Positions 6,834 through 63,141 of a stretch of 64,000 nt of DNA are shown in pieces. The position numbers and the translations under genes are program-made. The stretch comes from Whitmania pigra (Eukaryota > Annelida > Clitellata > Hirudinida > Haemopidae), in the NCBI GenBank assembly GCA_021613335.1, contig JAJTWR010000314.1, positions 2,097,501 through 2,161,500 of the forward strand, read 5' to 3'. Below the pieces are notes generated by a model. It was not told the DNA's origin. It made no database searches and saw only the letters and a list, made by a program, of their open reading frames with translations. The number at the start of each line of letters is the position of its first letter. Within the stretch, counting starts at the first letter, position 1.

Positions 6834-24243
<17,410 letters not shown>

Positions 24244-35627: not shown

Positions 35628-37858
35628 ATGTTAAATATATTTATTTCGTTTTCTACTTTGCTTCTCGCGCAAGGTTAGTCGATAATTTGATGGTAATCGA
35701 CAAATATTTAACTCGAAACATGTTTAAGTCTGAAGTCTTATCTTAAGTTAAAATCAAGTTGTTAGCATCAACATTTTTGATAACCACAAATAATGCTAAT
35801 ATTACTAAATACCCAAATGATTGAAATTCGATCGCCGATGAAGTGTAATTGCTTAATCAGAATGATATTGAAACACCAAAAATGTATATATTTATTTGAT
35901 TGTAATTGTAACTTCATTTATATAGCGCCATATGCATAGCGTCAGAGGCGCTTCTTGTAACCATTTATATAGCGCTCCTTCCCAAGGGCGCTGGCGGCAG
36001 TGCAGGCTGGGTTTCGAACACGACACATTACGACTGTTGCCATTACCGCCGTATGCAGGCACGTAACCCATTCGGCTATCCTGCACGCTGATGATATTCA
36101 CATTTGTGTAACAGTTGCAAATAATGAAGGTATCTCACGAATTATTACCACAATTGTGGAGAAAGGAACAAAGGCAATTGTTGAATGCAACAACTCTTGC
36201 AACTTTGATTCTTTACTTTGGTCGTACAAACCCTCCAATGAAGCATGTTACGAAGATCTCATTGTTGTGGGGAGTGCATCGATCAGAAATAAAATTTCTA
36301 GAAGAAGGGATCAGTGGTTTAATGTCACAAACGACACAAATTGCAGGAGTAGTTTGTTTCTGCCGAAAATCCAGTTTGAAGCTGCTGGAGTCTATGCCTG
36401 CTGGGAGGGTTCAGTGGCCAATGGAAAAACGAATGTTATTGTCGTCAGTGAGTAACATTGATTTGTCAACAATTTATTAGGTTGAATTGAATGGTTATAT
36501 TTATACTTTAATTAATTAATTATACACAGATCAAAACAATTGTTCAATCACACCAGAGTTTCCAGACTACGAAAACATCCTTTTGAGGCAAAATGACTCA
36601 GTGACCATCAAATGTTCTTTCCAATATTCAGCAGATGAATCATGCATTGTTACTCCTATTTGGACAGACCTCACAGGATACAGAAATCTCACGATACCTG
36701 ATGATGATTTCGAAGTTAACATGGATGACAAACATGCTTGGATTCATTTGAAAGATGACGTAAAAATAAATAATGGAACTCAATTCAACTTATGCTTTGC
36801 TTTCAAGTGTTCTTTTGTCAACATCAGCGTCAAAAATCAAGGTGGACAACGAGGACGTTATGATTTTGGAATTGTACCATTCAAACTTTTTATCGATGGT
36901 ATGCCATGAAAATTTTGTTCTAGTTTTGAACTTCTATTTTTCTAATTAAGTGATTGATCAATAAAGGTGCATTAAATGAGAGCATTCTTTTGTTCGCATT
37001 AGGTTTGGCTTAAATAGGTTGAACTAAGCTAATTGCTTCCTCAGAAAATAGCGATGTCTTAAAACAGTTTATAAGACTGTACTTTTCCAAAGATTAAGAA
37101 ACAATCCATCTGTGATCAGTTGGCTTAACCACTAGAAATATGTGACGCTGAAGATTATGGCGCCACATAAATTGGATCATCAATCATCATTACTAAAATG
37201 TAGATGTATTGAATTTATATAGCGCCAAAGTGCAAAGCTTCAGAGGCGCTTCTTGTAACCATTTATATAGCGTTCCTTCTCAAGGCTGAATTGCGAACAC
37301 GACACATTGCGACTGTTGTCATCAAATCCATTTGCAGAACTTCTACGGCAAACGTGCATACTTATTAAAATATTGCTTTATTTTCAGGACCTACGAAAAT
37401 CGAAAATAATGATCACAAAACAAATGCCATCAATTTTTTACTCACAGTTGTTATTGGCTTAGCCATTGCAATCGTTATTATTATCATTATTTTCATATTC
37501 ATGTGGCAGTTTTACAAGTTGTTTTACGGTAAGTTTCATCAGATTAATAAAACATAAAAAAATTACATGTTAAGAATTATTAAGTGCAACAAGTTCTAAA
37601 TTAAAACTATTTTTTTCTGGAAAAAACATTATCAAATGGAATTCCACTTAGTATCTTTATTTATGAATTTATATTTTGTTCGGAACAGATGACAATACGC
37701 AAACGAACAACAATGTCAGCGTTTTGGGAAAAGCTCTTCCAGGCATTCCACTGGTCATAGAAGACGTTGATGTCAGGAAAGATTTCCAGTGCAAAAATAA
37801 TGTTGGATCAAGATTTGCCGAGGATGTTACCTATGATATCATAAACGACTTTATGTAA
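35628..37858 (+). CDS. Ig-superfamily single-pass receptor IgR1 with ITIM-like tail, 352 residues
   Basis: Five exons: 35628-35673 (leader, MLNIFISFSTLLLAQ), 36115-36447 (Ig-like 1), 36530-36898 (Ig-like 2), 37388-37528 (transmembrane), 37689-37858 (tail). Every intron is phase 1. Ig1 has IVECNN, LLWSYK and the end AGVYACWEGS, the usual Cys/Trp/Cys pattern of a V- or I-type fold. Ig2 has VTIKCSF and PIWTDL, with FKCSF as the second Cys. The membrane segment is uncharged, followed by WQFYKLFY. The tail has VLGKALPGIP and ends VTYDIINDFM; V-T-Y-D-I-I fits the ITIM consensus (I/V/L/S-x-Y-x-x-I/V/L). A cell-surface receptor signalling through tyrosine phosphorylation is likely; the ligand is unknown. 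An AATAAA is at 37881. The Ig1 acceptor lies just after a SINE, and a second in-phase acceptor makes its exact start uncertain. Confidence 0.85.
35905..36088 (-). mobile_element. tRNA-related SINE in IgR1 intron 1
   Basis: On the minus strand the head (about 36088 to 36002) opens GTGCAGG and closes CCTGCAC, a perfect 7-bp acceptor-stem pair, with an A-box-like GATAGCCGAATGGGTTACG and a B-box GTTCGAAACCC. The length (about 87) resembles class II tRNAs. A non-tRNA body (GGAGCGCTATATAAATGGTT, GCGCCTCTGACGCTATGC) continues to about 35905. Related fragments are at 37204-37330, about 8970-9045, 53085-53115 and 58845-58875. Confidence 0.7.
37204..37330 (-). mobile_element. SINE fragment, same family as 35905-36088
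   Basis: It shares TTATATAGCGCC, CAGAGGCGCTTCTTGTAACC and CGAACACGACACATT with the copy at 35905-36088 but has lost part of the head. It lies in the IgR1 intron before the transmembrane exon. Confidence 0.65.
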
Positions 37859-40603
37859 AGAATTTGGAAAAAAAATCTTTAATAAAATTCGTTATAGTTA
37901 CAGTTGACAGCTATTTTTGAGCAGAACAATTCTGGCTTTCTTATTGATAATTATCAAGTCATGGATATCTCCAACTCACTTGATTAACTTGATTATTACA
38001 ATTTAAACATTTAGTGCATCTTTTCACGAATTTAACAATTGCAAATATAATTTCTTGAATGTTGATTTACTTTTGATTCCAAAATCTTTATTTTTGAGCA
38101 AGTTTCTCATATTATTGAAACATGTTGTTACTGTTAAATTTTATGTTTTTGTTTTGTAGAAAAAAATATAATGTCGATATTGGACTGATGTTGCAAAGTG
38201 TTCTAATAAACGTTAATATTAAATGCTCTTTATTAAACTTTTGCATTCCGTGAAAGTAGAACGAGAGGATAACCAAGAGATAGAGATGGGCGGACGTAAC
38301 AGTAAATGATGAGTGTGAGGTCTAAAATCTTAATAACGATAGTTATATATTCTGCAGAAATTTATGACGCAGATTTAAAGGCGAATGCTGAAGACGGAGG
38401 TCTCGATAATAATATAAAACAAAATGAAACAATGTGGGACACGGCGTTCTAAATATTGTTCTAAGTACAAATCTTCTTCAAGGATGACAAAATTATAAAC
38501 TTGCTATTTTGGAATTTCATTGAGAAGAAATTGAAGTAGAGATCGTAAATCGAGTCCAATTATCAATGGGAAGAAGTACTTAAAATTGTCACAATATGCG
38601 ACATATATTTTATTCACGAAAAATTAAAAGACCAATGACCAACTATATTAATGACAATGAAAATAAACAGTGGATAAGAAAATAAGATGAAATAGGGCAA
38701 CCTGGAGGAGTAATATAAGCAATTACGTAATCAATTAATCAATTAAGCATTCATTTAATGATAAGGTCAGTGGTAGCGCTAAAATTTCAATATAAAATTA
38801 TTTATATCTAAATTATTTTCACTATTTTATATTTGTAGCATAACTTCATCCTATAATTTCATAAATCGCTTCACTCCTTAACCATTCGTTCATTGACTCC
38901 TAATTACAGTCAGAAACGTTATTAGCTTAACGATTTACAATTGTGTTCCCTTATTTCAGCAATACCAATGTAAGCTGTTACCAAAATATATTTCATTGAT
39001 TTACAATAAACAATATTTAAATTAGAACTTAATTTATAAAATCCTCCCAATATTACCAAGACCATAATTAATTGACATCTATTCACAGTCTATTAAAAAA
39101 TCATTCATTTCTGAAATTATTTCAAACGAAACAAACTTGCACAGTTCTATGATAATTCTAAGAATTATCTAAATATCTATTGCTTTTGGAAAAACATGTG
39201 CCATTGATAAGGGCTACTGAATCTAAGAAAGTAAAGCAAAGGCGTTCTTTTGCACTTGAGAATCCTTAAGGACCACTGTAATTTGTTACCTTTATTTGGT
39301 AATCGAGTAGGGTGAGATTTGAAGCACGAGACACGGTGGATGCATCTGATTATGAGAACATTAAAGGCTCAGTGGAATGGGCTAATCGCGAATATATTTT
39401 TTTTTGAGTTATCAAACGCGATGCACATAGCATGATACACTATTTTATTGAGTATTTGATCCAATCTTTTAAAAATCACGGTGACCCAAGATCCTTGAAA
39501 ATGGCTGAAGGCTACAGCAGTTTTTCAAACTGAAAAATATAAATTGCAAGCAAAGTATTGTTATTATTTATTGTTTGATTTTTAGTTAAATTTACTCAAT
39601 CTGAATCAAATAAAAGGTAAATGTGTCTCAGACTTAAGCATTTAACCTTAAGAAAATTATTAACATTTAAGAAATTTAAACCATAATATTTCAGGTAAGA
39701 TAAAGTTTGAGTAAGAAAAGAAGTCAACAATAAATGACTTTTAATCAATAGTAATTAGTTACAATTAATTTATGCTGCATCAGTAGCTCTGGCAATAATA
39801 GTTTGTCTTTATTTTATCAATTTTAATGCAAAAGCAAAAGCTTCGAATATAAGGATTCTTTTCATTAACATTGGCATAATGCTATATTAAATATTTATTA
39901 ATTTACTAATTTTAACATATTAAGTTATTTCATCGCAATTATTTTGATCTTTTTACTAATTTTTTCATGCTAATTAATCATGCAATCGATTTGTTTAGAA
40001 TTGAAGAACAAGCAGCGATCGTAATTTAGTTGCTTTACAGATAAGGATTTTTTTATTTTTGACGCATGTTTCTTGGTTTTTCCAGTTCTATTTCAGGTGT
40101 TGTTCTTCGATTAAATTATGGCCATTATTTGCAATGATATTCTTATTAATTTTAAGAACTTAATTTGAAATTTTTCATTAACCTCAATAAACATTACTGA
40201 TTTTTAATTTAATTTAATGGATTCTCATTATTTTTATTGGCATCGTGATGCTACAATAAACTAACGATCCTGCTTTTAAAAGCACAATTAATAACACTTC
40301 CATTTTTTGGTTTGACGTTAAAGAATTGCAGTAATTTGTGTAACATTATTTCTTCGAAATTTAAATTTGACTTGTTTTGTTATGGCAGGTGCATCGGTTA
40401 TTAATTGCCAGTCATTAATTTAGCGATTCAAAAACCACATTAACAGTGAGTGGTGCTTTTTTCTCAACAGCTTGTTAGTGATTATCCTATAAAAGGACAG
40501 TAAAAGTAAAATTACAATATTATTGCTTGGAATATATACTTCAATGCTTCATTATAAATTCTGTAAAATAGTTCTAAAATTCTATTAAATTAACAATATT
40601 ATC

Positions 40604-41136
<533 letters not shown>

Positions 41137-41715
41137 AATAAATGCATTTAAGTTTCTTGGACAATCTTGGCGTCTGGCGTTAGTACAAATGAAACAGAAT
41201 TATGCAGTTTTAATAAAGCTGTTTCCTCTTGATCGATAATGGATCGATAATAATCCTCTCGATGTCGGAACGGTTAAGAAGTCATGGGAAATCGTCCTAA
41301 TCATTCAATAGATATGTTTTTCAAAAATCGACACATACTCAAGCGCACAAACATTTATAGGCAAATCTCCAAATACGTTTTTAGTAAAAAAATAAATTCT
41401 AGGTTTGATATTGATTGATAGAGGATGTATTTAGTTTTCCTTAAAAAAATATTTAAGAAAAACCTAAAGATAAAAATAAATTACTTAAATTACAATAAGT
41501 TGTAGTAAAGTAAATTCTTTTACATTTAAATATTTAAGTTAAATTTTAAATCTTCAACGGCAGTTAACTCGATTAAATAGCAATTAAGTGGATAAACGAA
41601 ACGTAAAACATTCCTGGTGATACTGAAAACAGCATAAAATAAGTGCGTCACGTAACAAAATGAATAATAATCCATAATAGCAATAATAATAATAGAACAT
41701 TAACAGTTTAAAAAA

Positions 41716-41880
41716 AAGATATTTCATTGGCAATGAACAACTTTTCCTTCTAGCTAGATTACCATAATTAATATAATTACACTTAACTTTGTCCTCAGCT
41801 TTGTTGTTAATAGCTAAGTACAAGTTGTTTTTAATTTAGAAATCCCGTTGATTCTTGTTACTATGAAATGTCGACTTGTT
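41716..41880 (+). promoter_or_regulatory. Duplicated block upstream of IgR2
   Basis: Counterpart of 35252-35419. It lies about 150 bp before the IgR2 leader exon, against about 210 bp for IgR1. A shared promoter or enhancer is possible. Confidence 0.5.
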
Positions 41881-42027: not shown

Positions 42028-43951
42028 ATGTTAAAAACATTTTTAGTTTATTATGTATTGCTTGTTGTTCATGGTTAGTAAAGCATTTATTAACATCTTT
42101 ATATGCAATATAAATATGCTAAATTTTCTATTTTGCATTCATGCATTTAATTGAAAAGCAGTTATCAATTATCTGTTTAAAATTTTTAATTCTTGACAAA
42201 GTTTATTTTTGTTATTCCACATATATATTTTAATACTACTTAAGATAAAGCCGCAATATTTTACTACAAATTCAGGCAAGTTTTCAATCTATTTTATTTT
42301 TCAACAAACAAATGATTTGTTGCTTTTTACTTATTTTAGGTATACGGTATGACGGATTCGCAGATATAAATCAGAGCATGGAAGCAATTGACAAAATGAC
42401 AAAAATTGTTAAGAAAGGAAACGATGTTATTGTGGAATGTCACTTATGCGATGTCCATCAATTAAAATGGACATATAAAGCAATTAATGAGACAGAAGAA
42501 GACATTGTTGAAAATAATAACATTATTAGGAATGAAAATCATGGAAAGCGTCGACCATGGTTTAACATTAAAAACAATTCAAACTTCACGTACAATTTGG
42601 CTTTGCCAAAAATTCAACTTGATTCTGCTGGAGTTTATAGTTGCTGGGAAGGTTCGGTCGTAAAAAGAATTACACATATTGTTGTCATAAGTGAGCAAAT
42701 TTTCAATAGTCATATATATATTTAAAACCAAATATTGCTTTCAATATTTTTACGCTTTACTTTTAAACTAATAGATTCAAGCGAATCTTGTTTTGTTGAA
42801 CCAAAGTTGTCAGTTTCTGAAATCATCCTTTTGAAACACAATGATTCCGTCACCATCAGATGTTCTTTCCAATATTTAGCAGATGAATCATGCATTGTTA
42901 CTCCTATTTGGACAGACCTCACAGGATACAGAAATTTAACGATACCTGGTGATGATTTCGAAGTTAACATGGATGACAAACATGCTTGGATTCATTTCAA
43001 ACCTGGTGCTGATGTAGCAAACGGAACTCATTTCAACTTATCTTTTGCTTTCAATTGTTTTTTCTCAAACAACAACCAAGGCAAAAACATTCAAAAAAGG
43101 CTTTACGATTTTGGTCACGTGCCATTTACATTTCTTATCGAGGACAAGAAGGGTATGAAAAAGTGATTTAATTGTCATGTCATTAATTTCGCTGGCTGTC
43201 GTTTTTGTCAATGTGGATTGATTGTAGAGACGACGCAGTATTTCATTCCACATATTCTTGATTATTTCTAAACGCTTTAAAATATGTTATTCGAAAGAAC
43301 TTAGCTATCCAAAAATTTGTAAAGTTTTTGATTTTAGTGAACAAGCAAAACATAAAAATTTAAAGTATCTTTAAAAGTCAAAATTGCGCAATTGATGCAT
43401 AATCTTGATCAAGATACGATTCGGTTGAATGATAGTGATAAAACATTATTGACCTATGCTACATGACCTATGCTAATTTAATTAATAGAAAATGGCGACT
43501 CCAGTAACAACATAAAGATTAGCTTCAATTTCTTGCTCACGGTTGGTATTAGCATGGTTACAGCAATTGTGGCGGTTGTCCTGCTCTTCTTTTTCATTTG
43601 GAAGTTCTACAAACTATTTTGCGGTAAAATTCAGTTGATTACTCGAAGCTTTTAAAGATTGTAAATTTATCAGAATTAACTAAATTATATGTAGAAGTTA
43701 ATTGAAGTTTATTTAATGATAATTGACATTACTAAGTTTATTTCACTTTTTATTAAAAATAATAATATTAATTTTTATTTCAAATAGCTGACAGATTTCA
43801 TCAAAAATACGATTCCAGTGTTGTGGGCAAAGAACTTCCAAATATTCCTGCGGTCAACGAAGAGTCCACAACCATGAACAGCATTTTATGGAAACATGCT
43901 GCAATCAAGATGTCAGAAGACAATTACGATGTTATAAATGATTTTGTTTAA
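42028..43951 (+). CDS. Ig-superfamily single-pass receptor IgR2, 357 residues
   Basis: Exons: 42028-42073 (leader MLKTFLVYYVLLVVH, same 46-nt length as in IgR1), 42340-42690 (Ig1), 42775-43152 (Ig2), 43489-43623 (transmembrane), 43788-43951 (tail); all introns phase 1. Ig1 has VIVECH, LKWTYK and AGVYSCWEGS. Ig2 is almost the same as in IgR1 (DESCIVTPIWTDLTGYRN, DDFEVNMDDKHAWIH). The membrane segment is followed by WKFYKLFC. The tail has VVGKELPNIP and ends EDNYDVINDFV; the tyrosine has Asp at -2, so it is not a strict ITIM. An AATAAA is near 44082. Confidence 0.85.
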
Positions 43952-45005: not shown

Positions 45006-46900
45006 ACATTCTGAGTGGAAAAACTCAAGTATCAACTGAGATGATAATAACTAAAATAACAAGCAATGTTTTCATCGGATGTGAGGCACGCAATGCTGCT
45101 TCCAGACTGTGGACGTACAAATCAACAAATGTATGTCAAGCTACGGAGGATCTTGTCAAAGGGTCTGAAATTATCAGAAATAAATTAAATGAAAAGGATT
45201 ACAAACGTTATAGCATTACTACAAAAAGCAACAACTGCACATACAATTTACTTATCACAGCAATCCAATTGGGTGATGCTGGGCTGTTTGCTTGTTGGGA
45301 AGGTTCGGTTGTATTAAAAAGTTCAAACATCGTTGTCGTAAGTGAGTTATTTATGACGAATTTAATTTTTTTGTAACAATTCAACTTTGAGTAATTGATA
45401 TCCCAACTTTAAATTAATAGATTCAAATGACGCGTGCTTTTGCGAACCCGATTTCCCTTACTCCAAAAACATCCATTTGAAACAGAATGACTCAGTCACC
45501 ATCAAATGTTCATTCCAATATTCATCGGATGAATCATGCATTGTTGGAGTAACAATGCATGATTTTTCTATTTGGACAGACCTCACAGGATACAGAAATT
45601 TAACGATACCTGATGATGATTTCGAAGTTAACATGGATGACAAACATACATGGATACGTTTTAAACCTGGTGCTGATATATCAAACGGAACTCATGTCAA
45701 CTTATCTTTTGCTTTCAATTGTTCTTTCTCAAGCAACAGCCAAGACAAGCACATTCGACATGAAGGGCGCTTCGATTTCATGTGCAATTCACAACTTTTT
45801 TTTTGAGGAAGGTTTGTCTGCACAATATAACTTGGGATATTTTATTTTAGAATTAATTTTTTATGCTCATTTTACACTCATTTTATTAGCAAGTTTGAAT
45901 TGCGAGTTTAATTTTTTTTTCGTAAATAATATTTCTAATCATTTGCGTTTTAATTTATTTAAGTTGCTTCTTGGTGATCTATCTGACTTAAAAACTGTTT
46001 ATCCAAGAATTTCAATTTGAAATGATTATAATCTTATTATAACATATTATTGCGTTTAGAACTTTTATAAATTTATTTTATGATTTTGTTTTGTAGAATT
46101 TAATTTGGGTGAGATTTCAATTTTGTTTTTATTAAATTAAATTTTGCTTAATATTTTATGTAAATTTTCAACAACTCAATCAATTTATTCAAAAAAAAAT
46201 ATTAAAATATAGATTGTACTTTTGACAATATGATTTTGCAAATTTCTAATTCGTATCAATTTTGAATGCACAATTTTCTTGCACTATATTGATGGAATGA
46301 TTTGCAGATAAATGAAACATATAATAACATGTATGACTTTAATTCCAGCTACTAACACTAATCAGACAATCATCAATCTTTTGCTAATTTTCGCCATTGG
46401 CCTGGCCATTGCAATATTTGCAATTGCAATTGTACTCATGTTTGCTTGGTTATTCTACAAGTTATTTTACGGTACATTTTATTAGCTGATCTTGATTTTA
46501 AAACTTTGTACGTATTTAGTTTTTAAACTGTTAAATTGCGTAAACATTATATGCGATAAACTCACCCAGGTCGTGAAATCCTAAAATGAACCATATACTA
46601 TCAAATTAGTAAGTCAAATAACTGAATAAATTTTATTAAATAATGATATTTATCTTTAATGTTTCGCTAATTTGTACAACATTAAATTAAGTTAATTTTG
46701 TTACAACAAAAAATGTTCAAACGGTTAAAGATAGCAGCATTGTGGGTAAGAATCTTCCCAAAATTCCCGTGATGACTGAATTTTCTGGAGTCGTGGAGAA
46801 TTTTCAGTTTAAAGATTTGTCTGGATTTCGATTTTCAGAGGATGCAACTTATGACATCATAAATGACTGTGATGAACCAAAGTTAACATGCAATATCTAA
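45006..46900 (+). pseudogene. Ig-superfamily receptor IgR3, frameshifted and without an obvious leader
   Basis: Exons 45006-45341 (Ig1, FIGCEA, RLWTYK, AGLFACWEGS), 45421-45811 (Ig2), 46349-46471 (transmembrane, WLFYKLFY) and 46731-46900 (tail, IVGKNLPKIP and ATYDIINDCD). Ig2 keeps GYRNLTIPDDDFEVNMDDKH but has an 18-nt in-frame insertion near 45547-45564 and, close to its end, a run of nine T (about 45796-45804) that puts the frame into a TGA. The exon is one base longer than phase 1 requires, so one extra T explains the break. The rest of the gene stays open with good splice sites. It may be a recent pseudogene, a secreted short form, a polymorphism or a sequencing error. An AATAAA is near 46988. 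Confidence 0.65.
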
Positions 46901-49105: not shown

Positions 49106-52100
49106 ATGCTGACATCAAATTTGTCACTGAACTATTTGAGATACCTATTTCTTGTATTGATTGGTTAGTCTACAGATTTAATAACAATATTTAATATTTA
49201 TTTAAATGAATTATGTAATCTAATACAAACTTGTATTCAATGCTCAAAATAATTCCAAATTAAAAAAAAATGTAAAATTAACAATTTAGTCGCCCGGAAC
49301 ACAGCTACATCTCCAACTGGCAACTCCACTAATATAAAAACAGTAATTGGTCTCAAGGGACACAATGTCTCAATCGAGTGTCAATCCTGTAATAACCAAC
49401 CTCTTTATTGGACATACAAATTGCCAACTGGCGAAGACGAAGATATCACCGGTGGATTACATTTAGTCAGAAAAGAAATGTACCCATTAAATGAAATGCA
49501 GTACAATCTTGCACAACAAGATTGCTCTTACAACTTATTACTTCAAGAAGTAAAATTTAGTGCTGCTGGCCTGTTCATCTGTTGGGATGGTTCGACTGAA
49601 GTTTCAAAAACGAATTTCATCGTCGTAGGTAACAAAATATATTACTTATTACTATGATAACATCATTTTCATAAATTATATCTTGGTGCATCAAAGCGGA
49701 ATAAAGGACTACCGAGAGTGCCCATTCTAATTTATGACTTAGCCTTCGGGGTCTCGGTTTTCGCCTTGGTGCTCCCTTGGCAGTACAATTCCTGTCATGC
49801 TCGAAATTTTCATTCTCTGTCATATAATGGCATATACTAGTCATATAATTAATTGTGTATAAAGTCAATACTTTTTGGTACCAAAGTTATTTTTTTGCAA
49901 CAGATGACGAGAAAAACTGTTCCATCACACCAGATGTGCTACGTGCTACACCGGGATTATTGAACCAAACCATTGCATATGAAAAGAATATTTCACATTT
50001 TACAATCAGTTGCGCGCTTCATTATTCAACAGAGGGGTCCTGTGTTGCTTCTCCTATTTGGGTAGACACCACAAACAGCAGAAACATAACGACATCTGGA
50101 AATGGTTTCGAAATCAAATTAGAAAACAAAATTGCCCAGCTCGTTTTGAGACCTGATGCTGATATTGAAGATGGAACTCACTTCAAAATTTCTATCGCCT
50201 TCAATTGTTCATCATTTTCAAACAACAGCCATGATTTGCGACAGCAAGAAACATACAATTTTGGCGAAGTACCTTTCACTTTTAGTGTCAAAAAAGAGGG
50301 TAATAACTAGTTTGTAATATCAATTTTCGTTCGTCTATTAGACTAGTACAGCAAGCAGCACTCATTATCTCATTAATTTTATTTTAATGATAAGAAAATT
50401 GTGATCCCACTTGCGGCAATTATATTGTTAGTCCCATTTTAAGTTAATGGCTGTTTGCAACATAAAACATAAAACAGTATTTCATATGATACTCTTTGTT
50501 TTAAATGGGAATTTTATGAACATTTACCTTCACTTCAACGGCTAAATAAATGCAAAATAATTTTGTGGAAATTTCTTTTGTTTTGTATTTCATAGAGTTC
50601 ATTAACAATTTATTCAGAGTTATTGCAAATTATTAGTTAATTTCAAGATGTCTCTAGCGAAGTTCCCTAAAGCTCTGAAGTGTTTTTAAAAGATTTGAAT
50701 TAAATAAAAATTGTGGAATTATTAATTCCAGGAAATCAGTAATGATATAAGAAACTTAAACAATTTAATGATCGATGATTGTCAGATAATTACATTGAAA
50801 TTAATTAAAAATTCTCCTCTGACTAACATCAATGTGACTAATCAAACACAGAAACCTTCTAATCATTAAGAGAATTAAGTAGAATATTCGAGATAATTAA
50901 TGCTCATTATTTTCGTGAATTCAAAAAGTAGTTTGGCTTTGTATGAGTGATAATTTTTGTAGAAGTTCAACAGTTAGGAATACAAAATTATCTTTTATTT
51001 TGCAGAAGAAATTGTTTACACAGACCACACACCGCTTAACACTCGCGACGGTAATTATTCTTCATTCTTCATTTTAGTTAAACTTACTAGCAAAAACATT
51101 TAAAAAATTTAATTGGATAAATGTAATATTATATAACTCTATTATAATTTTTAGAAACTTATTATTTTAAAAAATTTTGTTCCTATGCTGATCAGAACGA
51201 AAGAACGAAATGGATGAATAACAACAAATTTAAAACTGCTCTTTAAGAGTAGTTTTACGAACGACGCATAATTGTTCTGATGTTTTAACCAGGCCCCACC
51301 AGAGGGGGTGAAGCCGGTGCGCCGCACTGGGGCCTAAAAATGTTTAGGGGTCTATGAACATTAAAGCTCAACATTAAAACGGGCAATTACGCATGAAATA
51401 TTTATTATTACTTTGATGCTGAAAGGGAAATTCCCTCTCAACCTCTTCCAGGGATGCCCACCTAAAGTTTCCAAATCCAGAGGGTTTTTTTTTATGTTGA
51501 AGAAGGCATAATAATTTTAGAGAGTTGAGATGAAAAACTAAAAAAATTTTATTTTAATTTTTGTATATAAGTTTTATTAAGTTTCGGCAACTTCATATCA
51601 TTCTATTATTTTATACCTTTGGCTGTCTAACTGAATCATCTAGATGTGAATAGTGATGGAAAGGGAGCCAGAAAAAGTCTCGAACTGGAACTTTTTTTCT
51701 CAAGGAGGCCCTGGTTTTAACAAAGAGTTCTTAATCATGTCTGTCATGTCTGTGCTATTAAAAAATTGATTAATGTCCTATTAATCCACAACAACCTTCA
51801 GTTAATTATTTTGAAATATCCCTTTATCATCAGCAACTTTTTTTTTACAATTTTTCAAAAAAGTTACATTAGGGTCAGCACTAGGGTTATTATGGTTGAG
51901 ATAGCTTGACGGTTTTAATAATGTTAGTAACATATTTCTATGGATAATTACTTCTTTTGTCGTGATATGTGCCATTTACTCGAACAAAATTTGATTGATT
52001 TGTTTACTTTTCTTTATTGACAGTCACAACAACGTCTGAATTTATAAAAGAAACCAGAACTATATTAAATATCGCACTCATCACTGGCGTGCCTGTGATA

Positions 52101-52777
52101 ACAGTCATTGTGATTGCAGCCTTGGTCATTTTCTGTCTGAAAAAGTATTCCAAGTTATGCTTCGGTAAAATTTGATTAAGAAAGCTTTATTTTATTTTAA
52201 TGTATTAATTTCTAATTTCCATACCCCATCTCAAAACCTGATTCTAGACGACTAAATAGCATTATGAACATGTCGCATTGTGAAATGTGAAATTTAAGAT
52301 CTTAACTTATTTTTTCCAGTATTTATAATTCCTTTTTTTTTCAAATTTTATGGTTGCACATGACGTTGAAACATTTTACAACTAATTCAATATTACTTTA
52401 TTAGTCGACAATATTTTCGTTGTAACACTTATATTTATAACGTTTTAAATTATAATGATAATTAATATTATTATATTTTATTATTATTTATTATTATTAA
52501 TAAGAATTATATAAAATTTATGTGTATTATATATGTCATTTTAATTTTTTATATTCATTTACCAGCAGCCAAAAACGCTCGAAAGATGATTAATCAAGCA
52601 AGTGTGATGGGCAAAGCTCTACCTGAGATTCCAATGACAGATGGCTACGTTGGTTTCACGACTGATTTTCAATCCAAATATATCCAAAATTATGAAGTTA
52701 TAGATGACGGTACTTACGATGCTATCGACGATACGGAATTAACTTACATCGGAAACTACATTCCAATAATTTACTAG
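49106..52777 (+). CDS. Ig-superfamily single-pass receptor IgR4, 396 residues, several tail tyrosines
   Basis: Exons: 49106-49163 (leader, hydrophobic LRYLFLVLI), 49290-49628 (Ig1), 49904-50299 (Ig2), 51006-51050 (short stalk EEIVYTDHTPLNTRD), 52024-52164 (transmembrane), 52566-52777 (tail); all introns phase 1. Ig1 has VSIECQ, LYWTYK and AGLFICWDGS. Ig2 is diverged but aligns (GSCVASPIWVDTTNSRNITT, DGTHFKISIAFNCS). The tail keeps VMGKALPEIP and then has clustered tyrosines: NYEVIDD, GTYDAIDD, LTYIGNYIPII. This is the most diverged of the four tandem genes and has more possible SH2 docking sites. A hAT-like element lies in the intron before the transmembrane exon. Confidence 0.85.
51290..51713. 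mobile_element. Non-autonomous hAT-like element, 424 bp
   Basis: The ends read CAGGCCCCACC and, inverted, CAGGGCCTCCTT, and the element is flanked by a perfect 8-bp duplication GTTTTAAC (51282-51289 and 51714-51721). An 8-bp duplication with CAGG(G/C)CC ends is typical of the hAT superfamily. No transposase frame remains. It is in an IgR4 intron. Confidence 0.85.
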
Positions 52778-53468: not shown

Positions 53469-55910
53469 CTATTGAGATTCAATTTTTTTGTCTTGGGGGA
53501 CGAGGTAGAGTCCTGGGTCGTTATTGAAGAATGCAGGAGAAGAGGGAATGGATGGAGCACGCTGACCGCTGGGCATTCTACATGGAGTCATGGGGACGTA
53601 TCCTAGGACGCTTGAAGTGAAATGCGGAAGCTGAGATGAAGAAGAAGACGAAGCCATAGTCGAGAATGGCTGTTTCTTACTGCTATCGAGATAAATGCTA
53701 GGAGCGACGCCTTTGTCATCGATTCTGTCGTAGACTTCAGAATCGTCTGCTGAAGCTTCCCGAAGGAGAGATGCACCGTGGTGGAATTGCTGGAGTCCTT
53801 GGTGGAGGAGGGGGGCTGCAGAGTGGGGAGCGTGTGGAGACAAAACGCCCTGGAACCCCATGGAAGATGTTTGGGGTGGGGGTGTGAGGTTGTTGTTGAC
53901 TTGCATGTTGTAGGAATTCTCGCAGGAGACCGGCTGCCGCCTGTAGGCTACATTCTCCGTCATCATGGACTGTCCCCGGGTGTACATGGTAACTGGATAT
54001 TAATTGCCAACTTATTTCAAGTTCAGTCGACTTGGATCACTACACGATTTTGCCAAGAACGTTTAGATATCTTAACAATTTAACTAACTAGTTAATAAAT
54101 TCTATGTAGATACCTACGCGAATCGTCGCTGGTCCTTTTGCGGTACTTGACAAGGAAGAGGCTCACCAAGACTATGACCAAAATGGCGAAAAAAGCCAGA
54201 ATGCCGGCAAATACAAAGGTGATAGTCGATGACTGATTTTCATGGTGATCTGCTGCTGCGGGAGAATAACATATTAATAAAATAATAATATTAATACACA
54301 ACTTTGTGTATTTGCAATGTTTTTCAATAATTTTTAGCCATTAAACTTAACTAAAAAATATTTGAATTTTTTAAATTAATATTATTATTTCGCTAAATTA
54401 TTATGTTCTTTAGGCTTTTCTTATTTGAAGCCTGGAGATGATAACACGATCAACTAATGTCTTATTCATTTCATTTTAATTTAAATCCATTAATAATTAA
54501 TCTATTTCTTAAGCTTTTAAATGGAAATCAATGCTAATTACTTCCTTCTTTCAATTCTACTTCTAATCATAGTAATTTCAAAAACGTTCAAATTGGTTCC
54601 TAATTACGAATAATTGCTTATGTGATTCATTGCTGGGAAATTTAATAAAAGAATATAAAGTTGTGTAATCCTCGGTTTTAATGATGAATTACCCTTTTCA
54701 GATGGGTTTAATTCAGAGGCGCCGAGGTGAGGAGTGACAAATTTAGTCGTAGTGGAAGTGGTGCTCTCTACATGTACAGGCGTTTCAGCTGTTAAAAGGA
54801 AAAATAATTTCATAATTTAAAAATAAATTCATAAATTACAAATATGCCATGTACATTTCTTGACATAGTAAGGTAGTCCAAAAAGTAATTTGTACAGGGG
54901 AATATATTACATTGAGAGCGAAATTCAAGATGGTTTATCCTGTATTCGATGAATATCAATAATAAAATACGAAAACAAGAACATCGCACTAGATACCTTT
55001 TAAATAAAATGTAGGAGTGACGAAATTAGTCTCAAATATTGGTTCCTTCGTAGAATATTCAGCCTTGGTTTTCTGAGTCTTCAGACACTTGAATTTAATT
55101 AAGAATTTGTAATAACTGCCATTTATAAAGTTCTCGTCGATTTTTAGGATGGCCGTAAAAGATCGATTTTCAAACTGAGTTTCGTGAATTTCAAGATCGT
55201 TGTTCTGTGAGCCAAGCCATACGCCCTCAGCATAACAGTTACTTTGTGAGTGATATTTCACATTGCAAGTGATCTTGAAGGTATCACCTTCTTTCACCAA
55301 TGCAAAACCCTGTTCGCTGGTTTTCATTGGAAAGACATCACACTTTGTATATTCAGGTTCTATAAAATAAAATTAGCTTCAAAATAGCATCAAAAATTTG
55401 TTAATTCGCTTAAAAATCTTGCATTTATTTTACAACCGATTGAGCACCTACCTGCCACAATGATATTAGCAGAATAGCCGTATCTATTAATCAAACCCTG
55501 GGTGCAATGATAAATATCGTTCTCTTCTGGTGAAACATTAAGGAACTTTAAGTCTCTTTTTTTGAATTCTTGAGTGTCCTGTTCAATGACTTGAAATATG
55601 TGACTCATTGAGTTAGGTACCGCAGTACCGGGATATATCGGGTCAGTGCCATGCCTCTCATTTGTCCATAGTATGGCAGTCTTAACCGGATATTGGTTCT
55701 CTATTATTTTACATGGCCAGATATATTGTTGGCCCAACATGAGTACTTCATTTTCTGGTCTTGTTTGAGTCTCTAACAAGAAAAGTTATAAATTCTTAAG
55801 CAATTATTTTAGTAATAATTATGTCAACTAAAAAATGGCCACAAGAACCAACCGTCCGAATAAGAGGAAGAAAGTATCATCATAAAACATATAGCACAAG
55901 TCAGAACCAT
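53469..55910 (-). CDS. Ig-superfamily single-pass receptor IgR5 with long tyrosine-rich tail, 499 residues
   Basis: Exons from the 5' end: 55853-55910 (leader MVLTCAICFMMILSSS), 55452-55772 (Ig1: YIWPCK, AILWTNE, NDIYHCTQG), 54997-55359 (Ig2: FKITCNV, GVWLGS, IKFKCL), 54693-54788 (Ser/Thr-rich stalk VESTTSTTTKFVTP), 54118-54255 (transmembrane, then KYRKRTSDD stop-transfer), 53469-53992 (tail, about 174 residues). All introns are phase 1. The tail has DDSEVYDRIDD, close to the Y-D-x-I motif of IgR1-4, plus LGYVPMTP (Y-x-x-M, the p85 PI3-kinase SH2 motif), NSYNMQV, PSIYLD and LYLVPQD. This suggests coupling to PI3-kinase and so a possibly activating receptor, which is inference. It runs opposite to IgR1-4 and head-to-head with IgR6. 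Confidence 0.85.
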
Positions 55911-56910
55911 TTTCCTATTACACGATTTCGAGTGATTAATAAAAGGGTCACCTAAAGTTAAAAAATAGTTAAATAGTTATTTTGTAACTAGAACTTCATA
56001 TTAAAAAAGTTGTTGAATTTTAAACGAGGTATAAAGTGTTCTATGTGAAATATACAAAACAGCTTCCCAGAATTTAAAGGTTCTACTTCAATGATGTTGT
56101 TAAAAATTGCTTAAAGTTTTTAATAACATTACTATGCCATTCAAATCCAACCTTAGTTTGAGCTTCACAAAAGATTTTAAATTTTCGACAACTCAATCCA
56201 AACTAGGAAGCATCCTTATGCATGATTCGTAACGAGCTGAGGCTGAGACTAAAACGTCCTAATGACGAAAGGGATGTTTTCAAATAAGCTCTGAGTGTCA
56301 GATGGTTAAAGGGAGAAATTTAGAAAGAGAGAGAATTGCAGAGGTCTGGGAGAATGTACCCTAACGACTGGCAGTTAAGAAGACGTAATTATGATAATTT
56401 CTGGAAATTGTTGTAACAGCATTAAACAATGTCATTCAATATAACCAATCTTATAACGACAATCATGCAGTGGTAAGCAACATATATTTTCTAGTACTTT
56501 CTCCACAAAATAGATTTCTCGGAAGGTGATTGCTTATCAACCCATAGAAGTTTCTCAGTTATGAGAACAATTACAAGGAAATGATGCTATTCGAAAGAGA
56601 TCCTGTTCTGCATGTTACGCACTGTGCTTTGCAGTCTTAATCACCTTAATTAAATTGGGCTGACAAGCTTGACGGATGAAGAGATTCAATGAATAATTTA
56701 ATTATTATTTTTATTAAAGTAATATATATTTTTTTATATTTAATTCTGATGATGTTGTTTATTTAAAATCATATATTTATTCGAAATACAATTATTCATG
56801 TCTGGAATTCCCATTGTCTAAATGAGGCCGCAAAACAGACTTGTTCCGTTTGTCTGAATGTCTTTTTCGGCTTTGCTAACTTTAGTGACTTTGAGGTTAA
56901 ATTTGCGAAA
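55911..56910. promoter_or_regulatory. Divergent spacer between IgR5 and IgR6
   Basis: The 1-kb interval separates the ATGs of two receptor genes transcribed away from each other. No other gene or clear motif was recognised. A shared regulatory region is plausible from layout only. Confidence 0.4.
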
Positions 56911-59900
56911 ATGTTCGTGATTTGGTTGTTAAATTTGCTGCTTTTAATAGCTGGTTAGTAAGATTATTATGTTGTTGTTGACCTTAACCATTCGTAATGT
57001 TGAATTATGGCCAAGCAAGATAATTCTTATTATAATCGTCACTAATAATGGTTAATCAGATTTTTTTATTGCAAGCTTTAGTGTTTTTTCAATTTATTTA
57101 AAAACTTTTATTGAGAAATGAGCAAATTGTGGGTTTTGTTTCTTCTGTTTTAGAAATTGGACAAAGCAGCTCTCAAGACACTGCAAAAAAACTGTTAATC
57201 TTAGATGGAGATTCACTGAATTTGGAGTGCAAGCTTTCAGATCAGCATGATAGAGTTATGTGGGTGTTTAAAGATTTGTTAGGTGTTGAACAAGTGATTT
57301 ACAACATGGATGAGTCTCGAGATGAATATTCTTTCAACTGCTTAATGAAAAGCCATTGTTCCATGGAGCTGAAATCTATTTCTAAAGCAAATGCTGGAAA
57401 ATATGTATGCAAGGCAAATACACCAACTAGCCCCTTCACTCCCGTGGTTGTATATGATGTGAATGTTGGAAGTTGGTACTCATTGTTGAATTTGTCATAA
57501 ATGATTGTTTTATCTTAATTTATCCTATTAACTAACATTGTTTCTTTCAATCATCCACTTTTAAGACAAAATAATTTCAGGCAACTTATTGTATTGTGAT
57601 ATCAAGATTTATGCATAAATAAATAAATAAATAAAATGAATAATTCATATTCCAAAATTTTGGGCTTTTTGGGCAAAATTTGTTCATTGAAAGATGGAAA
57701 TTTTTGAAATAGTAATAGATTATTAAATGAAGTAAATGTACTGATTTACAGGGCTAAGTTGTCACTCAAACATCGGTTCCAATCTTGAGGCAATTGCAGT
57801 TAGTGATTGCAAAGGGGTAAAAGCCACAAATCTTCGGCAAACCTGCACCCTCGAATACCGTGGTTCTTGGATCGAGATTCCCATCAGGTGAGGATGTTGA
57901 TGATAATGTAACTTCGCCATTGTTAAGAAGCTATTAATAGCGTTTTAATAACACATTGCAAATAGGTGGAGGAGAAGGTGGAAGAATGGAACTTATGTGA
58001 ATCAAAACCATTCAAACATGGATAAGAAAGGCAATCCAAATGATGTTATGAACGTCACTGTGGAATTTCGGGAAGAGGTCACGGCAGAAATGTCGAACCA
58101 ATCTTTTGAGTGCTCGGTACAGGACCAACGAATTCTACCTTGCACTTTGAAATTGAGTCCCATCTCTTGTAAGTGTTGTTGAAATTGAGCTAAAAATACT
58201 TATAACTCATCCCTTATATTAATAATAATGTCATATATTAATGTTTGTCTTGAAATTTCAAATTCAAAATATTTAATGTGACTTGAACTAGATATTTTTT
58301 CTTTGTAATTAACTAACTATTTGTATGCTTAATAGATTGACAATATATTACTTATAATTAATTATATATTGTTAGATAACCACTTCTAATATTTGCTTCT
58401 ATTTCATATAATTTCTAATTTGTCTAAGTGGATGTGGATGAGGATTGTCAAACATTATTGATGTCTAAGATGTTTAAGTGGTGATGCCTTCTTGCAGATG
58501 CCAAAAATCACACAAAACAGCTTTCTCAGATGAGCGACCCTCAGAAGCCCGTGAAATGTGAGGCAGACACCAATGACGGGCTTCAGTGCAGCTATGCGTG
58601 GTTCATTCCAAACACTGAGGAGAAGATAGAGAACCAGGAATTGTTGCCAAAAGATATAAAAGAGCAAGGTGTTTACAGATGCATAGCCACATGTGCCATT
58701 GGGGAAATCAATGATTGCAAAGTTCTTGCCAATGAGTTCGAGTTGGTTTCGGCCAATAAATCTTCTATGATGCCTATAAGTGAGTGTCCAAATTGCCATT
58801 TATACTTGCAAAAATCCTTGAGATCTCTGAGTCAATTACGCTTGTGATGCTATGCATGTGGCTCCTTACAATTTAACTATTATTATTATTACAGTAAAAC
58901 CTTTCTATAAAGAATATCTCTATAATGAAATATTTGTTATAACGAAATTGCTTTATGGTCCCAGCCAATTTCAAGACATCTATAGCATGATACTTTTTTA
59001 AAATTTTAAATTCGTTTATTTCAAAACTCTGAACGAAGAATACAAAAAACAAAAAAAATCGCAAATTTATGGTATCCCAAGGGAATATAACTCCTGTCTA
59101 GGGGATAACTGGTAACAAAATTATGGTTAGTGCTTGGATGGGTGACTGTCTGGGAATATCAGGCACCATAGACTTTTTTCCACTTCAAATCTTCTTCTGA
59201 AGACGATCATCTCATACATAAGTGGTCCGATCAACTGAGAGTGAGAATGCTAACGAACATGAGAAAATTGATGATAACAATGAAAGAATGAAGAAAACAT
59301 GATAAAGCCTACGAATATTTGACAATGAAAGAATGATCAAATGGGGTTGTGCTATGACACAAACAAAGGATTTTAAAATGAATAATGGGGATAAAGGGGT
59401 TAGGAAATATAAATCTCTACATTAATCTCAACAGAATGTATTTTTTAAGACAGGATTTAAATAGTGGGAAACTGTTTACAGAAGTAAGGGATTTTGGTAG
59501 AGAAGAGAACATGAGTGGACCTTGACAACTTAAGGAGAATTTTTGAAGGTGGTATGGGAAAATTCAGATCTGAATTGAATGGATTCAAAGATGCTAAGAA
59601 TGGATGTCTGAAGATTTGGAAAACATATTATTAAAGGACAAAGGCAGCAATTTATATTAATAATAAATATAAAGAGGCAAGTTTGGAATTTATTGGTGAA
59701 TATGTTGCTCTACAACATGATGCCTGTTCTCTACTCAAGGGTGAGAAATGTCATGAAGGAACAAAAAGTAAAAAGCGACTCAAGATGTTAATTGATTTGC
59801 AATCAAGATGGGACTGATATATTACAAAATCTTGTGATTGGCAAATCAAAAGATCCTAGGTATCTTAAAGGGGTCAGTCATTTACTTCTGCTATGCAATT

Positions 59901-62900
59901 GCTCATCTAACAATTAAGCATGGATGACAGGAACACTCTTTCAGGAAACCCTCCTAAAATTCAACTAAAAAATGTTCAGTGAACATAGAAAAGTTTGCCT
60001 GCTGCTTAGTGCCCAGCTCATGTCACAACTGTTTTAAATTTGTCAAATGTTGAGCTCATCTTCTTGCAAAAAATTTCTGCCCAGCCATGGGATCAAGGAT
60101 TCATCCAAAAACACAAAGGTTCATTGTAATAAGGCATTGGTTCACCATTACATAAGATTCTTAGGTAAGTTTGTAAATCAAAACGTCCCTGCTTATATTC
60201 CATATTAATTTTATTTTGAAATTCTACGTACACACTTTTAGACTAAGGGAAATTATTTGAGGAGTTAAAGCCATGTCAGATTTTTTAAAGAATTGATCCC
60301 ACTTGCTTGGGATAAAGTTATATCTCAAAGTATCAGAAATTGCTGCGGAAAAGCTGAAATTTGAGTTTTCAGAGGACAATGCTGCTACAAATGAAAACCC
60401 TGTCTTGGACTCTCAGGAAGCAAATGATATAACTGAGCTATCAACACAGTTTAGGGAACTACAGAAGCGACTACCTGATAAAGGGCTTTCAACAGCATTC
60501 GATTATATTACATTTGATGATGATGTGGCAGTTTGAAAAAATACCAGTGCAACTGATTAGTCTTCAAAGTCTCAAAACAAAGAGGGAAATATAGACTTAA
60601 GTGAATCAGTAGTAATGAAAGAGAGCATGCACCCTCTATCCCAATAAAAGAACAAGTCTTACAAAGTCTTCATGTGTTTGACACATTTGACATGAATTCA
60701 TTGTTATCCAGTGATTTCCATCAACATCTTTCAAATAGTGTAAGGGAAATTAGATTGTTTTAGGTCTAAAATGAAGCAGATTACAATTAAAAATTTTTAA
60801 TTTTTTTAAAAAAAGAATGTTGCATGTAATTTTTTTAAATATTAAATTTGAATATGAAATAGAAGTTAGAATTTAAATGAAATGGGAGTTTTGTTTAAAA
60901 AAAAATCCGAATCAATTCACATTGACTAAGAAACTAAATAACATAAGTAACTCTATAACAAAAAGAATACCCTTATTACGAAATTTTCTATAACAAAATA
61001 TGTTTTTTTTATTATAATCCAAGTGGCTTTACTGTGTTGGTTTCAATATTGATGATGATGGTTGTTAATTCTTGTGAATTTGGGCAGCACGACTCCTGCA
61101 AACCCTTTTTTGTTATTAATATAAATTATTACCAAAACCAAAATCTCTCTAAAAATGGGATTCTTGACTATGGAACAACACGCATGTCTGGAATGTTGCA
61201 AACACTTAGCTATCATCAGAAACAAATGATACATAATTTTGCACATTTTTATTTCAATTTTTAAATTCTAAATTTATTTTAAAATTAACATTTTGTTCAT
61301 TTTTATTTCAAAAGTGATGATATCAATACAATCAATTAATCAAATGTATCTTTTTTGTTTTGTCAGTTGCAATTGTTGTTGGGATATGTCTCCTGTTCCT
61401 GGTCCTTGCAATTGTGGGAATAATTTTGTATAGAAGAAGGTAGAAAGGATGACTTTTTGTCAATGTTTGTTTTATGGACTTTACCACCATCACTTTCAAC
61501 AATTCATTGTTGTCAACAGCTTGGTGACATTTAAATTAAATCTCCAATTCATGCTGGAGATAATGAAGATGTGGCTTAATAATAACGATAATCAAAGATT
61601 GTCATGGAAATGTGTTTTGTCACTCATTAAGTTGTAAATGCAACTTATGCAGACATCAATCATTATCAATTTGTTTACTTTGTACAGGAGAGCTGCTGTC
61701 AAAAAAGAGAAGGATGTGGACAATAAAGAGCTAAAGGGTGTCACATCAAATGAACCTCTGTTGTCTGGCACTGCCCAAAACCATCCTGCTGCCACGCCCA
61801 TACCAGTATCAGGCCAATCAGCTGATAAGCCAAGCCTCTCCGGCCCATCGCACAATGGAGGGGGTGGGGGCAGTGCAAGTGGAAGAAAGCCCCAATTCAA
61901 GAGAGGCACTTCAGGCAAGGGTTCCATTGATTTCCAAACAATCCAGGAGGAGGGTGATAAAAGTAAATTTGAATTCTCTTTAGTTCTATTTTAATTAAAT
62001 TATTAACTTAATAATGTTTTTACATTAAATTTTGTGGTTCTACACAATTCTAATTTGCCTTAAATTATAAATTCAGTTGGTCATTACTCAACAGACCAGG
62101 TAGCCCAAATAGGGCAGAAGATAATACTAAATGATGCCAGGGGTCCGGTCATGGGCGTAGGCCATCTCGGTGATCGCATCTATTGTGTGGCGAAAGGCTC
62201 CAACAAGCTCTTCATGTTTGTCGACAGTCCTCCCTACAATCGCATGATACCAGAGGAGGTGGTCGTTGGAGAGTTGACCAATCCGCAGGCCTTGGTGGTA
62301 TGCCCTGGAAGCAAGTCTCTCTATGTCAGTGACTATTCAGAGAAGAACATTGTTTTCAGGTTTGTCTTTAGTATGCTTTGTGGATACAGCATCCATGGTG
62401 TGCGTACGTGTATATTTTTGCAATTCATCCAAATGCACCAATAATGAATGCAGGATTTTCCCAATGGTTAAAGAGGGCAACAAGGTTTCCAGGGGTAGAC
62501 TGGATGGCAATCCTGCTGGTATTGCATTGGTCCATTCGAAGCCCAATACGATCGTGGTCATCCTGAAACGAGACAGAAAGATGCATATTGAGATCTATGA
62601 TTCATCAGTCTCAAAAGATTCTCGAGGTTCGGTGAGCGAGTCGGAGACTTGGGAAAAGAAGTACATCATAACGACCACCAAAGATGTTATGTTGCCTCTT
62701 TGCGTTACCACGGTCGTTATTAAAGAAGATGCATCCCCTTCCTCTTCTTCCTCAGAGAGACTGTATCTTCTCTATGGATCTGGAAAGTACCTGAGCACTG
62801 GTGGAGAGTTTGAATCCTATAAAGTGTCACAGATCAACTTGGAGACCAGCCTGGTCTACAACACCTACGACCTCAAGGAACTTTCTCAGGGCAATGGAGA

Positions 62901-63141
62901 TAAATTTGTCACAAACAACATGACTTGTGATGATTCACAAGGAGGCATTCTCATCCTTGGCAAGAAAGGTCAACTGATGCACTTGAACTCTGAACTGACC
63001 CTTTTCAATGAAGAGGCAAAGTTGGGATCTTCCCACCATTGCTTCTGCTTCAGGCCCAAGGAAAGAATAGTCATATTAGGAAGTTCAAACAAGTCCTATC
63101 TCGTCTGCTACAAGTTGAAAGACCTGAGTGCCAGATGCTGA
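56911..63141 (+). CDS. IgR6: Ig-like receptor with cytoplasmic beta-propeller-like domain, 766 residues
   Basis: Nine exons: 56911-56953 (leader MFVIWLLNLLLLIA), 57154-57471, 57752-57887, 57966-58168, 58498-58779 (ectodomain), 61367-61439 (transmembrane), 61688-61962, 62077-62359, 62454-63141. Phases agree and the total (2301 nt) is a multiple of three. Ectodomain: Ig-like 1 (LNLECK, VMWVFK, AGKYVCKA), a second Cys-containing Ig-like region across two exons (LSCHSN to NQSFECS), and a third (VKCEA, YAWFIPN, QGVYRCIATC). The membrane helix (AIVVGICLLFLVLAIVGIIL) is followed by RRR. Inside, a Gly/Ser-rich linker leads to about 320 residues of repeated strands such as MGVGHLGDRIYCVAKGSNKL, PQALVVCPGSKSLYVSDYSE and GGILILGKKGQLMHLN, which resemble NHL/SMP-30-type propeller blades. 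The donor of exon 2 (GTTGGT) is non-consensus but fits the phase. AATAAA is at 63722. Confidence 0.82.
58892..61034 (+). mobile_element. Decayed Tigger/pogo-type DNA transposon in an IgR6 intron
   Basis: The ends are inverted: CAGTAAAACC at 58892 and its counterpart GGCTTTACTG at 61034, with further related TATAACGAAAT sequence inside, as in Tigger/pogo elements. A transposase of the DDE_1/CENP-B-like family can still be followed in broken frames between about 59500 and 60540, including the regions matching L-K-G-E-K, the V-I-G-K-S-K stretch and the C-P-A-H region. Many stops and shifts are present. The left flank is TA; the right TA seems mutated. Confidence 0.72.
59121..59173 (+). repeat. 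5S rRNA-like 3' segment inside the Tigger remnant
   Basis: The stretch GGTTAGTGCTTGGATGGGTG followed by ACTGTCTGGGAATATCAGGC resembles the 3' half of animal 5S rRNA (usual GGTTAGTACTTGGATGGG and CCTGGGAATAC), and a T run follows at once. Only the 3' half is recognisable, so this is a pseudogene or the head of a 5S-derived SINE, not a working gene. Confidence 0.65.

Follow-up and report, generated by a model that had tools for sequence, protein, structure and literature searches.

In mammals, the CEACAM3 gene has been modelled as a recombinant of the CEACAM1 gene, which supplied an immunoglobulin (Ig) V exon, with the CEACAM4 gene (PMC7026191, in the section dealing with these genes), and the closeness of CEACAM1 to its relatives bearing an immunoreceptor tyrosine-based activation motif (ITAM) is credited, in the corresponding passage of PMC2832619, to gene conversion and recombination. 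Primate Siglec-11 and Siglec-16 are an inhibitory and an activating member whose ectodomains were homogenised by gene conversion, according to the portion of PMC5701461 that concerns them, and in Siglec pairs a charged transmembrane residue couples to DAP12, as outlined in PMC2832619. Clustered receptors are also described from invertebrates. Excerpted accounts of the Hydractinia Alr complex list clustered type I receptors of the Ig superfamily (IgSF), many pseudogenes and a few clusters within one large region (PMC11067881), together with ITAMs and immunoreceptor tyrosine-based inhibitory motifs (ITIMs; PMC12065747), and those of Botryllus FcoR list haplotype-clustered Ig receptors of 520-610 amino acids with a sushi domain and with ITIM, hemi-ITAM (hemITAM) and core Y-x-x-I/L/V motifs (PMC12065747). 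Protostomes use such motifs too, because the oyster receptor CgIgIT2, an IgSF protein with an immunoreceptor motif, recognises microbes, as summarised in PMC11999971. The present analysis concerns a stretch of 64,000 nucleotides from the leech Whitmania pigra (GenBank assembly GCA_021613335.1, contig JAJTWR010000314.1, forward-strand positions 2,097,501 to 2,161,500; hereafter the window), which carries a cluster of Ig receptor loci, IgR1 to IgR6, and the continuation of this cluster along the same contig, here called C324.

The main finding is that nearly the same predicted ectodomain occurs in this family with two classes of cytoplasmic tail, most clearly in IgR1 and in G10 (C324:2169373-2171300), a gene located 36 kb from IgR1 and intact from ATG to stop. 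Exon models were built by hand from GT-AG splice sites and reading frames, and the proteins discussed are predictions from the sequence. The receptor loci of the window, in window coordinates, are as follows.

35628..37858, + strand: IgR1, 352 amino acids in five exons, with 4 of 4 junctions in phase 1
35628-35673, + strand: IgR1 leader exon
36115-36447, + strand: IgR1 Ig1 exon (V-like)
36530-36898, + strand: IgR1 Ig2 exon (four cysteines)
37388-37528, + strand: IgR1 transmembrane exon
37689-37858, + strand: IgR1 tail exon
42028..43951, + strand: IgR2, 357 amino acids in five exons (42028-42073, 42340-42690, 42775-43152, 43489-43623, 43788-43951)
45006..46900, + strand: IgR3, a probable pseudogene with Ig1, Ig2, a transmembrane segment and a short tail
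49106..52777, + strand: IgR4, 396 amino acids (exons 49106-49163, 49290-49628, 49904-50299, 51006-51050, 52024-52164, 52566-52777)
53469..55910, - strand: IgR5, 499 amino acids (exons 55910-55853, 55772-55452, 55359-54997, 54788-54693, 54255-54118, 53992-53469)
56911..63141, + strand: IgR6, 766 amino acids in nine exons, with three Ig-like domains, a transmembrane segment and a cytoplasmic region

Five of these genes, IgR1, IgR2, IgR4, IgR5 and IgR6, are complete in the models, being open from ATG to stop and comprising a leader, two or three Ig domains, a transmembrane segment and a tail; in IgR5, Ig1-Ig2 is diverged and the tail is long. Almost all exon junctions had been described as phase 1 in a preliminary description of this DNA, and this holds for 23 of 26 junctions in the five complete genes, the remaining three, all in IgR6, being phase 2. 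The same description counted six leader-Ig-transmembrane-tail genes. For IgR3, however, a search upstream did not find a leader exon, and a 4-base deletion shifts the frame of the Ig2 exon, so that the window is better counted as holding five intact genes plus a probable pseudogene. At 45532-45564, the Ig2 exon of IgR3 also contains an 18-base insertion that includes 14 bases repeating the 14 ahead of them in reverse-complement form; it is hairpin-forming and looks like a template-switch mutation. Similar dispersed repeats are visible by eye in two introns of IgR1, namely intron 1 (35930-36110) and intron 3 (37190-37290).

Window positions 36115..36898, which span both Ig exons of IgR1 and the intron between them, are near-identical to C324:2169659-2170463 in G10, about 8 kb beyond the window end. 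Over aligned bases, with shuffled controls ranging from 69.8 to 78.7%, the DNA identity of IgR1 and G10 is 88.6% in the leader, 83.5% in intron 1, 95.8% in Ig1, 100% in intron 2 (82 of 82 aligned bases) and 99.7% of 369 bases in Ig2. Further inward, it amounts to 82.0% in intron 3, 72.7% in the transmembrane exon (shuffled 69.8%), 74.3% in intron 4 (72.5%), 80.0% in the tail (73.9%) and 74.1% in the 3' flank (75.0%), so that across the transmembrane and tail exons of IgR1 (37388..37858) the likeness is barely or not above that of shuffled sequence. The high-identity block detected by blastn is 811 bases long at 96.8% and stops about 57 bases into intron 3. Synonymous divergence (dS) between the two genes is 0.074 in Ig1 and 0 in Ig2. 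As protein, the transmembrane exons are 43% identical, which suggests that the inner parts are old relatives and the outer parts recent copies. Two intact genes with near-identical ectodomains are thereby joined to tails that differ in the number and spacing of their tyrosine motifs, yet belong to distantly homologous classes.

The short, one-motif tail class of the near cluster consists of IgR1, IgR2 and IgR3, each with a single YDII or YDVI near the tail end. The IgR1 tail, with one tyrosine, contains LPGIP and the strict ITIM VTYDII (in the context EDVTYDII); the IgR2 tail contains LPNIP and DNYDVI (EDNYDVI), and the IgR3 tail EDATYDII, both conforming to the core YxxI only. The long, three-motif class comprises IgR4, G7, G9, G10, G11, G13 and G14. 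In IgR4, the tail contains LPEIP and YVGF-x11-YEVI-x4-YDAI, and in G10 three tyrosines are arranged in an ITAM-like manner, YAGI-x11-YEVI-x4-YESI. The array [YF]xx[ILVF]-x11-[YF]xx[ILV]-x3-4-Yxx[ILV], a pattern drawn from the same long tails on which it was scored, is shared by all seven long tails and absent from the 10 other tails scored. Two contrasting tail types had been recognised in the preliminary description, with short Y-D-x-I tails, including one strict ITIM, assigned to IgR1 to IgR4, and a long tail with Y-V-P-M assigned to IgR5. The two types, the short tails of IgR1 to IgR3, the ITIM of IgR1 and the long IgR5 tail, with YDRI and YVPM, are all retained here, but the IgR4 tail is longer and tandem, and the main split separates IgR1-3 from IgR4 rather than IgR1-4 from IgR5 and IgR6.

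Motif counts were made over 17 tails, excluding IgR5, and are partly circular, as the downstream tails were chosen partly for tyrosine motifs (or LPxxP). With that limit, the strict ITIM ([SILV]xYxx[ILV]) is present in seven tails (shuffled mean 2.7, with seven or more in 19 of 2000 shuffles), a looser pair YxxI/L x6-12 YxxI/L in nine, mostly at x11 (shuffled mean 0.26), tandem x4 tyrosine motifs in five (0.09) and LPxxP in eight (0.12). Among the window loci IgR1 to IgR5, the strict ITIM is present in IgR1 and absent from IgR2, IgR3, IgR4 and IgR5. Evidence free of motif choice comes from tblastn, in which the IgR4 tail matches those of G9, G10, G11 and G13 (E 2e-6 to 2e-11) and the IgR1 tail matches that of IgR3 (2e-12).

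Trees were computed for nine rows, leaving out G7, G8 and G12, for which the transmembrane model, the tail model or both were lacking. In the tree of transmembrane and tail sequences, short and long tails are separated at 100/99. In the tree of Ig1 and Ig2, IgR1 joins G10 at 100/99 and IgR2 joins G13 at 93/94, which is under the threshold for starring a branch; each pair unites one short and one long tail. The ectodomain tree requires three changes of tail class, of which starred branches impose two. The two trees conflict, nearly the same predicted ectodomain being joined to both tail classes. The second mixed pair, IgR2/G13, is the weaker one and historical at best, since the reading frame of G13 is shifted towards the end of Ig2. 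Among 66 pairs of near-cluster genes, amino-acid identity is higher in Ig2 than in Ig1 in 65, and dS is lower in Ig2 in 51.

The window holds one edge of a larger complex of predicted type I Ig receptors. With Ig2 of IgR2 as a query against the 178-Mb genome, 23 of 23 matches (E <=10, self included) fall on C324, four of them being weak alone (E 0.01-0.25); a second query, a diverged Ig2, places 22 of 22 matches (E <=1, own place included) on the same contig. These loci form three groups, at 2134-2184 kb, 2228-2244 kb and 2827-2907 kb, with a total span of 0.77 Mb. An iterated hidden Markov model (HMM) search of 263.5 kb, made up of the window and further stretches of C324 (the stretch between the two regions that hold loci being covered by the Ig2 queries only), identified 23 Ig2 loci including IgR5, all of them closely preceded by an Ig1 exon, as well as eight further Ig1 exons. 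Seven of these eight belong to IgR6 and to six C324 loci resembling its three-Ig part, five found by tblastn and the sixth by HMM and by eye. A genome-wide count of 23 Ig2 loci, all on C324, makes the locus larger than the six genes first noticed. Tail models were obtained for 18 of the 23; none was obtained for three diverged loci or for G8 and G12, in which no transmembrane segment or tail was found. In G7, Ig2 is truncated, and neither a leader nor a convincing transmembrane segment was found.

Three closely similar inverted Ig1-Ig2 gene pairs, facing each other a few kilobases apart, are located outside the window at C324:2228436-2231561, 2240422-2244301 and 2852116-2857088. They could be genuine palindromic duplications or fold-back errors of assembly.

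It seems fairly probable that these loci represent an annelid Ig receptor complex whose Ig exons are kept alike by recombination or gene conversion while the tails differ, signalling through SH2 proteins and probably serving immunity. Recombination or conversion over the Ig exons would keep the ligand-binding part alike as the tails diverge. Clustering by ligand would then lead to tyrosine phosphorylation and the recruitment of SH2 proteins, and this recruitment would produce a graded or opposed response, the setting probably being immune cells that face microbes or altered self. A search of the assembly for SH2 domains gave 80 exon matches, among them a single clear tandem pair on contig C327, spaced within about 1.1 kb. 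The immune role of the receptors is a putative one; colonial allorecognition is unlikely as a role because the host is an annelid. The bacteria of the leech gut and bladder are well studied. The earlier proposal of a paired-receptor locus is partly upheld by the shared ectodomain, differing tails and conflicting trees of IgR1 and G10, whereas the tail motifs of the six genes on which it had drawn are a weaker basis. The analysis did not place the genes in any known non-immune family having one-to-one orthologs, though no search aimed at orthologs was made. A more far-reaching possibility, which can be put forward only tentatively, is that an annelid evolved a paired activating and inhibitory Ig system independently of vertebrates, with about 23 clustered loci, the exons for ligand binding being copied between genes of the one-motif and the three-motif tail class. 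If true, such a protostome case would show that a design with the same outside and a different inside arises repeatedly, perhaps under microbial pressure, and it would offer a simple animal system for asking why paired receptors evolve.

As portrayed in the sources cited above, CEACAM1, CEACAM3 and CEACAM4 of mammals resemble this family in combining shared Ig ectodomains with differing tyrosine tails. The leech family is unlike them in its motif spacing (x11 and x3-4, not x6-8), its second domain, its annelid host and its general Ig matches only. Unlike in Siglec pairs, the second tail, of the G10 type, bears its own motifs. Clustered type I Ig receptors, pseudogenes and tyrosine motifs are shared with the Hydractinia Alr complex in its excerpted accounts; the Alr host, however, is a colonial cnidarian, and Alr, compared by description only, includes no described pair with the same ectodomain and different tails in those accounts. 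Botryllus FcoR, as far as its source describes it, likewise consists of clustered Ig receptors with the core Y-x-x-I/L/V; its hallmark, the sushi domain, has no Pfam match at E 0.05 in IgR1, IgR2, IgR4, IgR5, IgR6 or G10. CgIgIT2 differs in having five Ig domains and in being a single protein as described, with no clustered pair in the summary available. With LILR, KIR and SIRP, the locus has in common an Ig receptor cluster with contrasting tails, but it is unlike them in that no charged-transmembrane partner was seen by eye and only general Ig matches were obtained. In an open-access word search, which is not proof of absence, the published paired receptors with converted ectodomains were vertebrate cases only, with no protostome pair sharing an ectodomain.

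Several observations weigh against a recombining, probably immune complex as outlined above. The only intact near-identical pair is IgR1/G10, and one of six inner branches is starred in each tree, the rest being poorly resolved. Comparison of the predicted short and long tails shows them to be distantly homologous (IgR1 against IgR4, 7e-8), the classes differing by loss or gain of motifs. The ITAM consensus, YxxI/L x6-8 YxxI/L, occurs in 0 of 17 tails, the spacing being x11 instead. Frameshifts are present in IgR3 and in G13, the partner of IgR2. No pair with finite, non-zero dS among the 66 has a ratio of nonsynonymous to synonymous divergence (dN/dS) above 1 in either exon, many dS values being near saturation, so that the pairwise comparison gives no hint of an arms race. 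Finally, the strict ITIM is present in one of the three short tails, position -2 being D or A in the others, and the acidic residues before the single tyrosine in EDVTYDII, EDNYDVI and EDATYDII would equally fit a hemITAM-like activating motif.

These features of the short tails would suit a family that is activating throughout, with hemITAM-like rather than inhibitory short tails and members differing in strength only. The hemITAM consensus has acidic residues ahead of one tyrosine, in the classical form with a glycine before the tyrosine. By eye, no central transmembrane charge is present in IgR1, IgR2, IgR4, G10, G11 or G14 (in G9 there is an arginine close to the outer edge), which argues against an adaptor-coupled partner of the vertebrate type and would also agree with an all-activating family. 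However, IgR1 satisfies the strict ITIM, and the classical glycine is missing in 3 of 3 short tails; we regard this alternative as rather doubtful.

The likeness of IgR1 and G10 might instead have arisen neutrally, as a side effect of tandem duplication and unequal exchange within a cluster rich in repeats, with no functional pairing. Birth-and-death of genes is plain from the frameshifted IgR3 and G13, from G8 and G12 with no transmembrane segment or tail found, and from the truncated Ig2 of G7; the likeness in Ig2 is spread across many gene combinations, and the dN/dS values fit as well. A neutral origin nevertheless appears unlikely, as IgR1 and G10 are both intact, the shared block corresponds to the two Ig exons and ends early in the following intron, and the ectodomain tree contains a second mixed pair.

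Ig receptors widely serve neuronal, adhesion and gamete-recognition roles, and the family could be a non-immune one of this kind that happened to expand. A profile of six Ig1 exons, compared with solved structures, matches pIgR best (2.9e-10), and among the 60 of 1346 matches listed it also finds the I-set domain of contactin-1 (8.8e-9), sodium channel beta-2, TCR beta, PD-L1, CD8 alpha and Robo; the contactin and Robo matches would agree with a non-immune family. No LILR, KIR or SIRP is present among these 60 matches, which are general Ig matches only. Solved V domains are thus matched by Ig1, and I-set domains match as well. Clustering, partial conversion, pseudogenes and tandem tyrosine tails, on the other hand, recall Hydractinia Alr, Botryllus FcoR and CEACAM as their sources describe them in the passages cited, and a non-immune family is judged quite improbable. 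A mis-joining of haplotypes in the assembly, at IgR1/G10 or in parts of the cluster, is very improbable, for although the near-identical inverted duplicates on C324 (2240.4/2244.3 kb and 2852.1/2857.1 kb) could be fold-back errors, alleles would match in the transmembrane segment, tail and flanks also, and IgR1 and G10 do not.

The Ig likeness itself is not due to chance, because the closest Ig2 paralogue besides the query itself matches at 1.5e-51 and the Ig1 profile finds solved Ig domains. In Pfam, the Ig domains match V-set, I-set and Ig_3, mostly below the cut-off; IgR6 passes it for I-set, V-set matches of IgR1, IgR2 and G10 as single sequences are below it, and IgR4 has no match at E 0.05. 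Searched by sequence in the PDB, Ig2 has no believable relative, the four matches being unrelated (best E 0.19). An AlphaFold model of Ig2 (pLDDT, the predicted local distance difference test, of 80) resembles V-type domains of the PDB in Foldseek, with TM-scores of about 0.4-0.6 and E down to 8e-5, and on this model Ig2 would have the general Ig fold, which alone is claimed. Four cysteines and one phenylalanine are invariant across 13 aligned Ig2 domains. A structure model of Ig1 was poor (pLDDT 57) and was not used.

The cytoplasmic region of IgR6, taken for a propeller in the preliminary description, has no Pfam match at E 0.05, a DUF3377 row covering the transmembrane segment, and no PDB match by sequence at E 10. 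Over about 75 query residues, it is 43% identical to an open frame on another contig (C100:3880787-3881881), which closely follows a same-strand open frame for a coiled coil. This neighbourhood fits the prediction that the IgR6 region is a cytosolic domain.

Elsewhere in the window, positions 1971-2642 encode the C-terminal part of a rhodopsin-family G protein-coupled receptor in which one loop contains long glutamine tracts. Its Pfam receptor matches are Srw and 7tm_1 only; by its motif it looks like an FMRFamide receptor. An ATP-dependent DNA ligase (PF04675, PF01068) is represented by exons at 25278-28003. Open frames at 17998-19734 resemble, by eye, a reverse transcriptase of the kind lacking long terminal repeats, Pfam giving only a weak zf-RVT match, and are preceded by an (ATA)n tract of 850 bases (17170-18025); a second tract, (TTA)n, is found at 40604-41135. 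In the assembly as a whole, there are 44 exon matches to innexins, four of which cover the full length within one open frame, 58 exon matches to the antistasin domain, partly clustered, and five matches to the annelid erythrocruorin linker domain, four on one contig and one of the five below the family cut-off. The innexin and linker matches favour an annelid host over a sponge or a tunicate, and the antistasin matches are suggestive of a leech. The assembly also includes bacterial contigs, with three different-looking bacteria by COX1 and one contig of more than 1.5 Mb.

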